DNA of 64,000 nucleotides from Salinibacter ruber DSM 13855 (GTDB taxonomy: Bacteria > Bacteroidota > Rhodothermia > Rhodothermales > Salinibacteraceae). Shown one piece after another: positions 7,701 through 36,173 of this stretch. Where the stretch lies: NCBI RefSeq assembly GCF_000013045.1, contig NC_007677.1, forward strand, positions 2,480,001 to 2,544,000. Direction: 5' to 3'. Made by a program: the position numbers and the translations under genes. The notes beneath the pieces were generated by a model that did not search any database, had not been told where the DNA came from, and worked only from the letters and a program-made list of their open reading frames with translations. Within the stretch, counting starts at the first letter, position 1. Each line of letters begins with the position of its first letter.

Positions 7701-8555
7701 TTCGACGTGCGCCTGCTCGACGTCCTGGCCCAGAACGCCGAGAGCGTGCTCCGCCGCATCGACCACGAGCAGGAGCTGGTGGACGCCAAGGAAACGGCCG
7801 AGAAGATGAGCCGCCTCAAGTCGGCCTTTCTCGCCAACATCAGCCACGAGATCCGCACGCCGCTCACCTCCATCCTCGGCTTCGCGGAGGCGATCGGCGG
7901 GGAGGTGGAGGGCGCCCGGCGGGTTGAGGAGGTCGACCATGCATCGCTCGCACGGTTCTCGTCGCTGATCGAACAGAGCGGGCAGCGCCTGATGGACACG
8001 CTCACCGGCGTGCTAAACCTCTCGAAGCTGCAGGCCGGGGAGATGACCCTCGACCTTGAGCCGATCGACCTGGCCGCCGAGGCCGCGGCCGCGGCCCACG
8101 AGTTTGCCCCACAGGCGGACGGCGCCGGCGTTGCCCTCGAACTGACGGAAGAAGACACGGCGGTTTGGGCCCGGGCCGACAGAAGCGGGGTGCAAATTGT
8201 CCTTCGCAACCTCCTCTCCAACGCGATCAAATATACCGAGGAAGGGGGCACGGTGTGGATTCGGGCTCGGACGGACGGGGAGCACGCGGTTTTGGAGGTG
8301 GAAGATACCGGAATCGGGATGGACCCGAATACGGCCGATGTGCTCTTTGAGGCGTTCAAGCAGGCGTCCGAAGGAATCGGGCGCGAGTATGAGGGCACGG
8401 GACTGGGCCTGACCGTCACCAAGGAGGTGCTGGACCAGATGGACGGCGCCGTTGCGGTGGAGACCGAGCAGGGCGAGGGGAGCCGGTTTACGGTGTGGCT
8501 TCCCCGGGCCGCGGAAGAGGGGGAGGAGCCGGAAAGGGGCACCTCGGGCTCGTGA
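4791..8555 (+). CDS. multi-PAS/GAF sensor histidine kinase
   Basis: A soluble sensor kinase of 1254 residues with no membrane segment. Order: a GAF-like domain (about 10-165), four PAS domains (about 175-280, 285-405, 415-545, 550-675, each ending in a DITERK-type linker), a GAF domain (about 690-840), a second, weaker GAF region (about 855-1000), HisKA with phospho-acceptor His1019 in SHEIRTP, and HATPase_c with the N box and a GTGLGL G2 box near the end. The frame is open to a TTG at 4764, but ATG 4791 gives a normal N-terminus (MDDVDPASL). No receiver domain is fused and no response regulator is adjacent, so the output partner is elsewhere. Redox, light or ligand sensing is possible, but no cofactor residue can be assigned. 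Confidence 0.88.
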   Translation: MDDVDPASLSDPDRLAALGRYGVLGSLPEEAFGRVANLAARLLDAPMAGVHFVNDHSRWAGAQVGHDAQQVAVDVSLSARELGTKELFVVEDAADDPRFQDNPLVAGGPAVRFYAGAAITTPAGHALGRLCVLDPTPRPEGLPEHDRQTLRELAGVVMDELAHRAQPRHREEILESITDAFYALDDEWRFTYINQQAEALLECSREEMLGEVIWEVFPETKELPNYEEYHRAVETGEPAHFEAYSPAFEAWFSVNAYPFDGGLSVYFNDVTARKEREHTLKEREEYLSVTLSSIGDAVIATDRGGRVTEMNAVAERLTGWSHADVEGRPLEDIFQIHNAKTGAPVESPVQKVLSEGKTVGLANHTVLTARDGTEYQIADSAAPIRTDEDDLLGVVMVFRDVTDEYERREAIKEQRERLEMALIGGGAGMWDWDMQTGDAVYDERWADILGYSLDEVESDNSFFERHTHPDDLERVYDDIDRHAHGEIPYLDQEIRMRHKDGSWRWVLDRGRIVERAADGTPLRMVGTHVDITERKERERELRTVRRRFERFAENVQDAFFLLPTDYSEAEYVNPAVERVYGVPAEDIREDPAAWLTHVHPDDREELLAGMERQRDGAVDWPVQQEFRIQHPDRGRRWVESRLDVVADDGGPPRIAGVATDITERKESEQRLRLQLDTLRQVATGTPLRTTLRDLIAAIEAQCPGMIGSVLFCDRAQGRIQHGVAPHLPDAYNAAIDGVEIGPAAGSCGTAMHERAPVIAEDIESDPRWADYRDLARSHGLRACWSVPIFDSNDEVLGTFALYHEQPTAPTEKERTLIDQARSLAGVAIERHRTAETLRDREQRVEALYDAISILTQSETPQELAEVLLDLITDTLDYPVCAVRYVEDDRLVPTVASPPGREILGPHADCAVDGPHAAAEAFRTGTTLHYNDVAEADGIDAPSPLQSVAHVPLGPYGSLSVGMTESGSIPPFDVRLLDVLAQNAESVLRRIDHEQELVDAKETAEKMSRLKSAFLANISHEIRTPLTSILGFAEAIGGEVEGARRVEEVDHASLARFSSLIEQSGQRLMDTLTGVLNLSKLQAGEMTLDLEPIDLAAEAAAAAHEFAPQADGAGVALELTEEDTAVWARADRSGVQIVLRNLLSNAIKYTEEGGTVWIRARTDGEHAVLEVEDTGIGMDPNTADVLFEAFKQASEGIGREYEGTGLGLTVTKEVLDQMDGAVAVETEQGEGSRFTVWLPRAAEEGEEPERGTSGS

Positions 8556-8783
8556 ACGGACGGCCCGGCTCCTTCCTTCGCACGTTTCTGAAGGCCGTCC
8601 CTCTGAGCCGAAAGATCGGTCCCCCGCATGGCAGTTCGCGTGGTGCCTACCGCCTTCGTGGAAGATCTCCCTCCCCTCCATTGGATCTTCCCTGCCTACG
8701 CGAAGCAAGCAGGCCTCCGGGGTCGTCCCAATTCGGCCTCAGAGGCGGCCATTTCGAGCCGGTGCCGGACGGCATTGTTTGAG
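8556..8783. other. short gap, nothing recognised
   Basis: Between the kinase stop and the end of the disrupted lipoprotein gene no gene or clear terminator is visible. Confidence 0.4.
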
Positions 8784-9205
8784 CTACTCCGTGCCGCAGC
8801 CCGTGATGGGTTTCCCGGGGATGCCGGCGAAGGCATTGCCCTGCGCCGTAAGGTCGATGCCCGCGTCGTTGCAGGCGATGCCGTGCTTCCCGCTGTCCTC
8901 GATTCTGCTGTTCTCGACTGTCAGCGAGCCCTGCGCGTCTAGTCCCGGGAGGACTTGCTCTGCTGTGATGTTGGCCGGGGACGAGGCGCCGCCTCCATGA
9001 CGGATGATGACATTGCTGAGGGTGCCCCCGAAGTCGTCGCGCAGGTAGATGCCTTGCCACCACCCCGGCATCTCGTTGCCCTCGGTGGCGGTCATCCGGA
9101 TTGGATTGCCAGCAGTGCCTTGAGCCTCGATGGCCGCCGGCAGAATTGCAAACACCTCAAGCTGCACGTTTTCGGCGAAGGTCATATGGACGCCGGCTTT
9201 GATTA
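8784..9205 (-). pseudogene. 3' part of lipoprotein gene split by the IS630-family element
   Basis: This piece encodes about 140 residues of parallel beta-helix-like repeats, including a GNEMPGWWQGIYL stretch that parallels GNRQPGWWRGVEF in the 5' part. Joining it to the 5' part across the element, keeping one TTA, gives a continuous frame reading ...TLVIKAGVHMTFAEN. That aligns with ...VDIKEGVTVTIEP in the preceding repeat. It has no promoter or start of its own and is most likely not expressed as a functional product. The original stop is at 8784. Confidence 0.8.
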
Positions 9206-9215
9206 TACCAGTTGC

Positions 9216-9821
9216 CTAGGATGACAGTACATGTCTAGCCTCCAACAGGTAGCTGTATCCGGTCAGGGACCTGATCGCTCGATCGGTGTACCTACGAAGA
9301 GCCATCCGGGTCTCCTGTCGCAGGCTCGATAGGTGCTCGTAGAAATCGAAGGAGAGCTGGTCTTTTAGGTCCTGCCAGAGCCGCTCGACTGGATTGAGCT
9401 CCGGGCTGTATGGAGGCAGAAACGTCAGGTCGATATTCTTCGGGATCGAGAGTTTCTTCGCCTTGTGGAACTGGCCGTTGTCCAGAACGAGAATGTTGTG
9501 GCTCCGAGGAAACGCCTCCGCGAATCGATCCAGAAAGCGCTGAAAGCAGTCGCTGTTCAGACGCTCGTGTTCGGTGAAAAACCGTTGCCCAGTTTCCGGT
9601 TCAACTGCTCCGTAGAGATAAAAGTACTCGTAGCCGGGCTTGGCTTCCTGAATCGGTTTCACGCCGGGAAGAGTGACTCGGTGCCTCGTAATGGGCATCA
9701 GCCCAATCCGACACTCATCCTGGCAAAACAGCCGCACGGGTTGGTTCGCCCCCGTCTTGACGCTCGCAAGACGGTCGGGAAGGCCCTCCTGGAAGTCTAT
9801 TTGCTCCTGCTCGTTTTTTTT
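9216..9821 (-). CDS. IS630 transposase, catalytic DDE frame (orfB)
   Basis: This frame is entered by -1 frameshifting at the A8 run. It carries the DDE triad of the Tc1/mariner-IS630 superfamily: Asp in LFCQDECRIG, Asp in ILVLDNGQFH, and Glu in the signature PPYSPELNPVERLW. The C-terminus runs almost to the terminal repeat. All key residues are present, so the element may still be active. With orfA it makes a fused protein of about 355 residues. Confidence 0.85.
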   Translation of the reverse strand, partial: KKNEQEQIDFQEGLPDRLASVKTGANQPVRLFCQDECRIGLMPITRHRVTLPGVKPIQEAKPGYEYFYLYGAVEPETGQRFFTEHERLNSDCFQRFLDRFAEAFPRSHNILVLDNGQFHKAKKLSIPKNIDLTFLPPYSPELNPVERLWQDLKDQLSFDFYEHLSSLRQETRMALRRYTDRAIRSLTGYSYLLEARHVLSS

Positions 9822-10279
9822 GGATGGCTGGGCCGAGGGGCCTTCGGCTTGGCTCCGAGTTCGTAGCGCACAATGCCATGGACCGTCGAATAAGGAAGCT
9901 CTGCGCCCTGCTCCTCAGCGAGCCAGCGCTGGATGTCCTTGTAGCTGCCGAAGCCCTCCGGGTCGGAGAGTCGTTCCTTCAGGGCCTCCATCACCTCGGA
10001 GGAAATCGACGTTTGGCCGGGCTCCGGTCCCGGATCTTCGACCTCTTGAATCTTCTCGATGCCTCCTTCTTCGTAGAGCCCGAGCCAATCGGAAACGGTA
10101 TGGCGATGGACGCCCAGGTGGCGAGCCGCCCCACTCCGGCTTTCGGCCTCTCCGGTCTTCAACAGAAGGAGCATGTGGAAGCGGCGCTGAATTTGGGCGT
10201 CTTTCTCCTTGCGAACGAGCTGCTCAAGCCGCTCGGTCGACTCGGTAATTTCGGGAAGGTTGTACATGAGGGGCGGCAT
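9797..10279 (-). CDS. IS630 transposase, N-terminal frame (orfA)
   Basis: This is the DNA-binding part of the transposase, about 160 residues with a helix-turn-helix region (RHLGVHRHTVSDWLGLYEEGG) and a second winged region typical of IS630. ATG 10279 is the chosen start; ATG 10267 is the alternative. The frame stops at 9797 soon after a run of eight A (9814-9821 on this strand). Slippage there by -1 joins it to the catalytic frame. Confidence 0.8.
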   Translation of the reverse strand: MPPLMYNLPEITESTERLEQLVRKEKDAQIQRRFHMLLLLKTGEAESRSGAARHLGVHRHTVSDWLGLYEEGGIEKIQEVEDPGPEPGQTSISSEVMEALKERLSDPEGFGSYKDIQRWLAEEQGAELPYSTVHGIVRYELGAKPKAPRPSHPKKTSRSK

Positions 10280-33575: not shown

Positions 33576-33993
33576 GAGCCCGAGTCCGTTGCTCGTGCTA
33601 GGGGGATTGGGGACTGGGTATTCAGCTGCCAAGTGCTTGGGGGCCGGACAGTAGGACGCCAAGGTATTGGACCTCTTGTCCTGCGTCGTGTTCGACGGGC
33701 CAGATGGCCATCGGGGAGAGGCGGTGTCGGGGAAGGGAGACGAAGACCACGGTGGCGTGGGGCCAGCCGACACGGGCCCATCGGCAGCGTCGAGACAAGG
33801 GGCCGGTCGCGCTGCATGCCGGCGACGAACAGGCGGAATCGAACGAGCGTACGTCACGTGCAGATGTTGTCGGGAAAAAAACGCACTTGGGAAGGTACTG
33901 GATGCGTTCCAGCACGTCGCCCGCGAGGGCATGGCCGTTGGCCCCCAGTTGGCACGCAATCATACATACGCAATCATACGTCTTGCCCCTCAC
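33576..33993. other. gene-less region upstream of the ParA-like gene
   Basis: No recognisable protein is encoded. The last 40 bases hold two perfect 12-bp direct repeats right before the parA-like start; see the separate entry. Confidence 0.4.
33954..33979. repeat. iteron-like 12-bp direct repeat pair
   Basis: ACGCAATCATAC occurs perfectly at 33954-33965 and 33968-33979 (14-bp period). It ends 14 bases before the start codon of the ParA-like gene. The position fits an operator or centromere-like site, but also overlaps where a ribosome binding region would be. Confidence 0.6.
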
Positions 33994-34665
33994 ATGGGTA
34001 TGACCACAATCGGTCTCGTCCAGCGGAAGGACGACGTCGGAACGACCACAATCGCCACCAATCTTGCCGTCACGCTTCGGAACAGGGGAGACAGCGTGCT
34101 CCTGGTTGACGCGGGCCCACAGGGGCCCCAGAAGGGCACTGTACGGGACTGGTCTGCCACAGGCGACTCCCAGACGCCCGAAACGATCGGCGTGGACCGA
34201 CCTGTGGTCCACGAAAAACTTCCCTCCATCGAGGGCTTCGATGTTGCGATCATCGATGCGACCGGCAAGCTGGAGGAAATGACCATCTCGGCCATCAAGG
34301 CCAGCGACCTCACGCTGGTACCCGTTCAGCCTTCGACGGCGGATCCGAAGAAAGTGGGGCAGGTCATTGATTGTATTGAGACCCACCAGGCCCTGACGGA
34401 AGCCCCCTCCAACGAGAGACGCCCCGCCGCTCGCTTTGTCATCTCCAGGGCGACCGGCTCCTCGAGGATGGGCGAGCAGATCCAGCAGATCGTCAGCGAG
34501 GCGCCCTTCGGCCGGCTGGATGCCGGAACGAGCCAGCGCGTCGCCTATGCCAGGGCCCTCGGCGAGGGGGCCAGCGTCCACGAGACCGGCGACAAGGAAG
34601 CGCAGGCCGAGGTGAAGGCCATCACCGACGAGATTGAACAAATTCTCCGGGCCGATGGACAGTAA
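33994..34665 (+). CDS. ParA-like protein with degenerate P-loop
   Basis: A protein of 223 residues from ATG 33994 (ATG 34000 also possible). The overall fold matches ParA/MinD-type partition ATPases: TTIATNLAVTLRNRGDSVLLVDAGPQG, FDVAIIDATGKLEEMTISAIKASDLTLVPVQPS, and ParA-type C-terminal helices. The deviant Walker A that should read KGGxGKTT is instead KDDVGTTT. Both glycines before the Val and the catalytic lysine are lost, and the following DADPQG is DAGPQG. The protein therefore probably cannot hydrolyse, and perhaps cannot bind, ATP. No parB is adjacent. It may be a former plasmid or island partition protein, or a pseudo-ATPase regulator. Confidence 0.8.
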   Translation: MGMTTIGLVQRKDDVGTTTIATNLAVTLRNRGDSVLLVDAGPQGPQKGTVRDWSATGDSQTPETIGVDRPVVHEKLPSIEGFDVAIIDATGKLEEMTISAIKASDLTLVPVQPSTADPKKVGQVIDCIETHQALTEAPSNERRPAARFVISRATGSSRMGEQIQQIVSEAPFGRLDAGTSQRVAYARALGEGASVHETGDKEAQAEVKAITDEIEQILRADGQ

Positions 34666-34823
34666 CGATCTCAACTACATCCAGCACAGATGCATTCCGC
34701 GTCGCTAGAACGTGGCCACAACCGGCGGCGTCCGACAGCGGCGGGCACAGGGCCCCGCGAACAGGAAGCTCAGCAATCGGCCAAACATTCGTCCACTCTC
34801 ACGCTCGTCGTTCCACCTTCTCG

Positions 34824-35249
34824 ATGAAGAAATACGTCTACTGGGGATCGACCGTCCTTTTCGCTCTCATGATGGCCGGCTCTGGCACAATGTACTTCGT
34901 GTCCGAGAACATGGCCGCCAAGTTCGCCCAGCTTGGCTTTCCGGACTACTTCCGAATCGAGCTCGGCATTGCGAAGCTTCTGGGGGCCGTGGCTCTCCTC
35001 ACGCCCCTCCCCCGGTTGGGACTCTCCCGCGCGGTACTCGCCCGCACGGTCAAGGAGTGGACCTACGCCGGCTTCACGATCAGCATCGTCTCGGCGATGA
35101 TCGCGCACACGGCATCGGGCGATCCGGCGACGGCACTCCTCCTCCCTGGGGTGGCGTTTGTGCTGGTGGCCACCTCCTACACGACGTACCATCAGTACTA
35201 CCGGACGGAGGCCGGCGCAGAGGAGACACCCACAGCCCCCGCTACGTGA
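34824..35249 (+). CDS. DoxX-like membrane protein
   Basis: A protein of 141 residues from ATG 34824 with four membrane helices. The pattern (SGTMYFVSENMAAKFAQLGFPDYFRIELGIAKLLGAVALL) is that of the DoxX-like family, where FP.Y....G..K..G is conserved. Family members are linked to redox or quinone-related membrane functions, but most have no defined role. The acidic C-terminal tail is short. Confidence 0.8.
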   Translation: MKKYVYWGSTVLFALMMAGSGTMYFVSENMAAKFAQLGFPDYFRIELGIAKLLGAVALLTPLPRLGLSRAVLARTVKEWTYAGFTISIVSAMIAHTASGDPATALLLPGVAFVLVATSYTTYHQYYRTEAGAEETPTAPAT

Positions 35250-35357
35250 TGGCAATTCGCCGCGTGGCAGCAGCTCCTTCCGTGCGGCGACCGGCCGCGC
35301 CACGACAGCCTTCACAGCCCCCGCGCCCTGCGTTTGGTCTCAGCCCAACAGACCCCG

Positions 35358-36173
35358 ATGGCCCCTGCCTCCGAGATCCCAATGCGACTCCACGATGCGC
35401 TCACCGCCCGATACCCCCGTCTCGTGGACACCTACGACCGAAAGATCGGAACCAAGGGGGCCGAGGGCCACGCCGACTGGAGCGCGTGGTGCTTTGCGGC
35501 CGGCGGGATTGCGGCCACGATCGCAAGCAACCGTCACGCCGCGGCCCCGGAGACGGTCGGCGCGGGCCAGGCGTTCGAAGACATCCACCGCATTGCCGCC
35601 ATCGCGGCGTGGCGCCCCGACCGGTACGTGCTGGACCTCTCCGACCGCCCGTCGACCGCAATCGAGACGATTCCCGCCCAGGTGTCGCCCCCGCGCTGCC
35701 TTCGCCCCGATACGTTTCATTTTGGGGCCTGGTGCCCCTTTGTCTTTCTGGGACGAGGGGCCGACGGCCAGAACCGCGGACTTTTCGTGTACCTGGATGA
35801 CCCGGGGACGGACAACGCCACAAACGGCCCCCCGATGCTCATCGGCGTCGTCGCGCGGGCGGACCTCGCATGCAGAACCGTCGCGGTGGCTTTGGGACAG
35901 GGGGGTCTGATGCGGGGCATCGAGACCGCGATGAAGGAGATTTCCGAAACGCGGCAGGTCGACACGGAAGAAGCGGTCGAGGTGGACGAGGAGGAGCTCG
36001 AGAAAGAAGCCGTGCCCAGGCTCGGGAAAACGACCGATTACGCGAGGGAGGCCCGCATTGCGGCAACGGTTGCGCTGTTTGTCTCCCAGGCCGACTGGAC
36101 CCCACCGCTTCCGGAGGCTCCGCGTCGGACCATTGCCATGGCGGAGGAGACGACGGTCTGCTCTCTCGCGTAG
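35358..36173 (+). CDS. hypothetical protein
   Basis: A protein of 271 residues from ATG 35358; the frame is open to TTG 35334. No signal peptide or membrane segment is clear. The first about 180 residues look globular and rich in Trp, Cys and aromatic residues (DWSAWCFAAGGIAATIA, TFHFGAWCPFVFLGRG, GLFVYLDDPGT). A strongly acidic helix (about 205-230, DTEEAVEVDEEELEKEAV) follows, and a hydrophobic stretch lies near the end. Frame and composition support a real gene. I do not recognise the family. Confidence 0.6.
   Translation: MAPASEIPMRLHDALTARYPRLVDTYDRKIGTKGAEGHADWSAWCFAAGGIAATIASNRHAAAPETVGAGQAFEDIHRIAAIAAWRPDRYVLDLSDRPSTAIETIPAQVSPPRCLRPDTFHFGAWCPFVFLGRGADGQNRGLFVYLDDPGTDNATNGPPMLIGVVARADLACRTVAVALGQGGLMRGIETAMKEISETRQVDTEEAVEVDEEELEKEAVPRLGKTTDYAREARIAATVALFVSQADWTPPLPEAPRRTIAMAEETTVCSLA

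Follow-up and report, generated by a model that had tools for sequence, protein, structure and literature searches.

Is a ParA-type gene whose ATP site has lost conserved residues a protein kept by selection for work outside the usual ATP cycle, or a plasmid leftover on its way to decay? The question is raised by a gene at positions 33994-34665 (forward strand) of the window, the 64,000-nucleotide stretch of the salt-loving bacterium Salinibacter ruber DSM 13855 analysed here (genome size 3,551,823 + 35,505 bases). A preliminary description had read the motifs KDDVGTTT and DAGPQG in this ParA-like gene, and had preferred a selected pseudo-ATPase to decay, as the frame contained neither stop nor frameshift.

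A ParF-type gene with a changed nucleotide site

Both motifs were confirmed by translation, and the frame is indeed single and intact (223 amino acids). The protein starts MGMTTIGLVQRKDDVGTTTIATNLAV and contains LLVDAGPQGPQKGTVRDW (translation of 33994-34665). It has Pfam matches to AAA_31 (8.7e-13) and CbiA (1.3e-7), its PHROG match is ParA, and the best match among solved structures is ParF of plasmid TP228 (1.7e-19). The AlphaFold model (pLDDT 88.7) has the ParF fold and superposes on the ParF structure with a Z score of 27.8 and 1.8 Å over 203 residues, at 28% identity. The PDB match, the fold comparison and the tree described below place the protein, by its ParF/Soj fold and by common descent, in the ParA/MinD fold superfamily. 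Within it, the gene belongs to the small, type Ib (ParF-type) ParA class; we call it the variant parA.

The start at 33994 is backed by the orthologue in another species of the genus (genome G002), which has the same MGMTTIG beginning and an in-frame stop shortly upstream. A frame extended upstream to TTG 33667 was rejected, since it is not conserved in the orthologue. Opposite the variant parA a 350-amino-acid antisense ORF is open (33622-34674). On account of this length it could be taken for the true gene and the ParA frame for its by-product, but in the orthologue several stops interrupt the antisense frame, and it is the ParA frame that stays open and aligns with ParF from end to end; this reading is practically excluded. 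Two adjoining ACGCAATCATAC copies, absent from the orthologue, lie just 5' of the gene (33954-33979), overlapped by a promoter-like match at 33949-33977.

The altered P-loop (residues 12 to 19, 34027-34050, forward strand) reads K12-D13-D14-V-G16-T17-T-T. The second motif, D39-A-G41-P-Q-G, has Gly in place of the catalytic-loop Asp, and a four-residue insert, missing in the canonical relatives, follows DAGPQ (residues 39 to 48, 34108-34137, forward strand). At codon 119 (34348-34350, forward strand) Lys replaces the Trp of the DxW motif, conserved in the alignment of relatives. The insert and W119K were not among the features listed by the preliminary description. In 31 canonical relatives G13, G14 and D41 are each present in 31 of 31 and K17 in 30 of 31, so the departures at these positions are not common variation. 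The signature lysine K12 of the KGG motif (KGG in 31 of 31) is kept in the variant parA and in its orthologue. The lysine loss reported earlier holds for the P-loop lysine of GKT, not for this first one. Also intact are G16, T19, D39, Q43 and D88. Altogether 6 of 27 well-conserved columns are changed, four of them in the nucleotide site, a descriptive count of small numbers. A count of P-loop variants among 80 viral-contig loci was set aside as evidence, since the search pattern favoured canonical motifs.

The family model for type Ib, ParF-like partition ATPases (NCBIfam NF041546, cut-off 180 bits) gave 152.0 bits for the variant parA and 160.3 for the orthologue, and 216.1 and 205.0 for the canonical relatives L072 and L020. 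Neither chromosomal protein has the deviant Walker A motif KGGxGK[ST] (KDDVGTTT and KDDVGKTT, respectively) or the catalytic-loop aspartate of DxD(P)Q (DAGPQ in both). One mark of a pseudo-ATPase, the loss of residues that nucleotide binding or catalysis requires, is present in the variant parA.

The orthologue, plasmid relatives and the lost partner gene

The G002 orthologue, chromosomal and 83% identical, is the single one in the 13 genomes of the genus; 11 of the 13 have no counterpart. Beyond it, no orthologue turned up among 114 genomes of the order, among 84,980 genome records and IMG/VR when these were scanned with peptide patterns, or in PLSDB, where 2,334 plasmid records carry relatives, all below 60% identity. 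It reads KDDVGKTT and DAGPQDPQQGTVRDW. The changes common to the two proteins against the canonical relatives are G13D, G14D, D41G, L118P, W119K and the insert after DAGPQ. K17T is confined to the genome of the window. The preliminary description had proposed a search for orthologues with the same loop, and had regarded a normal lysine in them as a sign of an isolated mutation. The sharing of the two aspartates, D41G, W119K and the insert answers the first point in the affirmative, but the orthologue keeps the P-loop lysine, and for K17T the second point stands.

In the tree the two proteins form one fully supported clade beside the canonical L072 and L020. Judged from these comparisons, most of the ATP-site lesion appears to be old and shared, and the lysine loss private to this genome. 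Being common to both species, the two Gly to Asp changes and the Asp to Gly change most likely predate the species split; K17T may be recent. G002 encodes a second, canonical ParA (L009, 1501-2121, on the 34-kb contig C12), which is 45% identical to the variant parA.

The closest sequence outside the chromosomal pair is the ParA of L072, on a 33.6-kb element (IMG/VR 2831103195; 67-70% identity), followed by that of L020/L066 on contig CAJXLX010000070 of an uncultured Rhodothermaceae bacterium (56-59% identity). The tree places both beside the pair (support 81-82/95-99). They differ from the variant parA in having canonical KGGVGKT, DADPQG and DLW motifs, and L072 has an intact partner gene: the end of its parA is overlapped by the ATG of a 72-amino-acid gene starting MDSDDLNQ. 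At the same place the variant parA is overlapped by an ATG opening MDSNDLN (34655-34675, forward strand; MDSDDLN at the L072 partner start), a vestige of a lost partner gene. Both chromosomal copies keep this ATG and about seven codons, MDSNDLN here and MNSDHPN in the orthologue, after which the frame soon ends. Given the overlapping gene in L072 and the same ATG and first codons in both chromosomal copies, the variant parA is a remnant of a plasmid-type parA-partner pair.

A small centromere-binding partner (ParG/omega-like) adjoins the parA of L072 and that of this genome's plasmid but is missing beside the variant parA, an orphan whose partner is reduced to its first codons. A search of the genome for the L072 partner gave a single, weak match, located on the plasmid beside the plasmid's own ParA. 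This plasmid carries a complete type Ib pair (L017, 8240-9092), a canonical ParA with an overlapping 74-amino-acid partner that has weak matches to ribbon-helix-helix families. The suggestion to look for a parB nearby was borne out to the extent that a partner once stood there; the sole ParB_N-domain protein of the genome is about 1.8 Mb away (C1:689164). The protein fails the defining tests of a partition ATPase yet keeps the ParF fold. Compared with ParF (ParA) of TP228, a type Ib partition ATPase (PDB 4e03, 4e07, 5u1g), it is alike in full-length fold and size, and its relatives show the ParF layout with a small overlapping partner gene; it differs by the replacement of G13, G14 and D41 (and K17), the four-residue insert, the lack of a partner gene and its chromosomal location.

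By eye, a TTAAGATC-centred box was seen just 5' of parA in L072 (4950-5000), L020 (1320-1500) and L009 (1450-1500). It is missing upstream of the variant parA in both species. The box may be an operator bound by the partner protein.

The variant parA, a DoxX-like gene (34824-35249) and a hypothetical gene (35334-36173) form a block (33819-36173, forward strand) that is collinear in G002 with 77-82% nucleotide identity. The outer flanks differ, two genes outside the block lying on other contigs in G002. In the closest species (G005) the interval 33716-34738, which contains the variant parA, is replaced by 1.4 kb of other sequence, and the two genomes are collinear on both flanks of it. The replacement (L063, about 8430-9840) holds an ORF of about 154 amino acids, lipoprotein-like and without a Pfam match. 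Genes may be exchanged at this position, which lies between two conserved genes. Probably the variant parA stood beside the DoxX-like gene in the common ancestor and was later replaced in G005. Since it was lost in the closest species and is missing from 11 of the 13 genomes, the gene is dispensable and not essential to the genus. The 279-amino-acid product of the hypothetical gene has no Pfam match and occurs in three of the 13 genomes (this one, G002 and G005). A functional link to DoxX was considered and rejected: a DoxX match is found in 12 of the 13 genomes, mostly without the variant parA, and the neighbourhood is probably incidental. PADLOC gave no match to known defence families for the variant parA or its neighbours.

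Selection and decay

Between the variant parA and its orthologue, 25 differences fall on first, 20 on second and 62 on third codon positions, and the only indel is in frame. The corresponding dN is 0.10 and dS 0.51, with a pairwise dN/dS of 0.20 (about 0.17-0.21 over the methods used). In the same species pair the dS (NG86) of four other genes is 0.32-0.51, and the neighbouring DoxX-like and hypothetical genes have omega values of 0.13-0.27. Late transfer between the two species does not explain the shared lesion, because the dS of the variant parA is not reduced and lies at the upper end of the range of the other genes.

A codon model written for this analysis (five taxa, 203 codons) gave a crown omega of 0.166 for the pair and rejected omega = 1 (lnL -2733.1 vs -2764.4, 2 delta lnL 62.7). 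When equal times, a reasonable constraint, were imposed on the two branches, their omega values were 0.166 and 0.164, and neutrality of either branch was rejected (lnL -2735.6 vs -2758.8 and -2758.7), with 2 delta lnL of 46.3 for the branch of this genome alone. The constraint matters: as synonymous sites are saturated in the outgroups, synonymous changes cannot otherwise be polarised and divided between the branches. When it was lifted, omega = 1 cost nothing on the G002 branch and a 2 delta lnL of 4.2 on the branch of this genome, so that one of the two branches could be neutral. Amino acid changes polarised with L072 and L020 numbered 12 and 14 per branch, with nine ambiguous; from these counts the lineage carrying the additional K17T does not evolve faster.

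With a dN/dS of about 0.17-0.2, neutrality rejected and a dS like that of other genes, both genes appear to be under purifying selection, and simple decay is unlikely. As the lesion is shared, and so most likely older than the split, the constraint most likely acted on a protein already altered at the GG and D positions. The other mark of a pseudo-ATPase, a sequence kept by selection after the loss, is seen in two sequences and, for each branch, under the equal-time assumption. The shared lesion and the dN/dS of 0.17-0.21 give the preference for a selected pseudo-ATPase stronger grounds than the lack of stops had provided, though the lysine loss, which is not shared, does not belong to these grounds.

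Slow decay of a plasmid leftover, in which the ATP site went first after the loss of the partner and the rest is to follow, would account for the missing partner gene, for the absence of the gene from most species and its replacement in the nearest one, and for the additional active-site loss K17T. The dN/dS of the pair, 0.17, is also higher than the 0.01-0.04 of canonical relatives, an outgroup value affected by saturation. Against it stand the intact frames of both species with their in-frame indel, the 25/20/62 distribution over codon positions, the strong rejection of neutrality at an omega of 0.17 for both branches together, and equal rates on the two branches. We regard slow decay as improbable.

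About as doubtful, in our judgement, is an unusual nucleotide switch, slow or locked, whose remodelled loop continues to bind ATP or another nucleotide. Natural lysine losses in the motif are found in other ParA/MinD relatives: BcsQ has RGGVGTT (Table 1 of PMC9178275), and the title of PDB entry 6ybb, a crystal structure, describes a BcsQ complex as ATP-bound; McdA (SGGQGKT), which lacks the signature lysine, has strong ATPase activity (PMC6328274). The missing P-loop lysine would by itself be no proof of lost nucleotide binding, given the BcsQ motif and the title of 6ybb. For the same reason the term 'destroyed', applied earlier to the ATP loop, is right as to the replacement of residues and unproven as to destruction. 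The intact K12, G16, T19, D39, Q43 and D88, the K17 retained by the orthologue, and the fact that D40A-type proteins can be locked ATP dimers also speak for a switch. Both BcsQ and McdA retain the GG; they are members of other subfamilies, and their partners are known. The variant parA has two adjacent aspartates in the phosphate-wrapping loop, a replacement at the equivalent of Soj G12, at which a bulky residue prevents dimerisation, and four extra residues in the loop after DxD. The two aspartates are a stronger argument for lost nucleotide binding than the missing lysine. As for K17T, it is quite conceivable, if somewhat short of an even chance, that it is an isolated mutation of the sequenced strain with no meaning of its own, which is compatible with a pseudo-ATPase. 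The sole orthologue has the lysine, and one base substitution is enough to produce the codon of this genome (ACG); on the other side, three other invariant positions had already gone, so the site may be no longer constrained.

A possible role outside the ATP cycle

In Bacillus subtilis Soj and MinD, G12V blocks dimerisation, K16A ATP binding and D40A hydrolysis, and all three MinD mutants have negligible ATPase activity (PMC13246001). Soj itself works in monomeric form when it carries G12V or K16A, and SMC control and DnaA inhibition are distinct functions of these monomers (PMC9564211). In the alignment the equivalents of G12, K16 and D40 are positions 13, 17 and 41 of the variant parA, occupied by Asp, Thr and Gly. 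The structural positions changed are the same, although the Soj and MinD mutants are engineered single changes in chromosomal proteins, and the variant parA combines natural Gly to Asp, Asp to Gly and Lys to Thr changes in a small plasmid-type ParA.

The explanation that we favour, and consider fairly probable, is that a plasmid ParA of type Ib (ParF-like) has been domesticated in the chromosome, and that the variant parA is the resulting orphan pseudo-ATPase, working without the canonical ATP cycle. The comparisons show a plasmid-type parA-partner pair in relatives and, in the chromosome, loss of the partner except for its first codons. They also show that the residues equivalent to Soj/MinD G12, G13 and D40 are replaced in both species, and that equivalent to K16 also in this genome, and that purifying selection has since kept the protein sequence. 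With an acidic phosphate loop and no catalytic-loop Asp, the protein would be unable to run the ATP-driven cycle of dimerisation, DNA binding, hydrolysis and release. It would be stuck in a single state, and this would most likely be monomeric, similar to apo-Soj(K16A) or Soj(G12V). In the least certain step, nothing but contacts to other proteins would be needed for its work. It might bind the partners encoded by related plasmids that enter the cell, and as a decoy disturb the partition of these plasmids, or it might bind a host protein, much as Soj monomers interact with DnaA and take part in SMC control.

How such a protein might disturb plasmid partition is illustrated by ParI of Pseudomonas putida: this orphan ParA, encoded on a genomic island, makes IncP-7 plasmids unstable (PMC9178275). 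It resembles the variant parA in being an orphan chromosomal ParA. ParI, however, has KGGVGKS, and its Walker A motif is required for plasmid destabilisation (PMC9178275); this motif is the one altered in the variant parA. The combination of GG to DD with lysine changes is absent among the motifs printed in that review, and a full-text literature search, of incomplete coverage, found no description of a conserved pseudo-ParA of this kind. The base for the pseudo-ATPase form is two known sequences, with K17T in one genome.

Present understanding of ParA/MinD proteins is built on their ATP cycle, and studies of what their monomers do have relied on engineered mutants. A natural protein changed at the same three positions and apparently still selected would make it possible to study ParA function in the absence of the cycle. 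We suggest only tentatively, and with considerable doubt, that the genus holds a conserved chromosomal pseudo-ParA lineage, nucleotide-independent and kept either as a decoy against the partition complexes that related plasmids or phage-plasmids form, or to regulate chromosome functions as a monomer. The variant parA also raises the question whether hosts turn plasmid partition genes into anti-plasmid factors.
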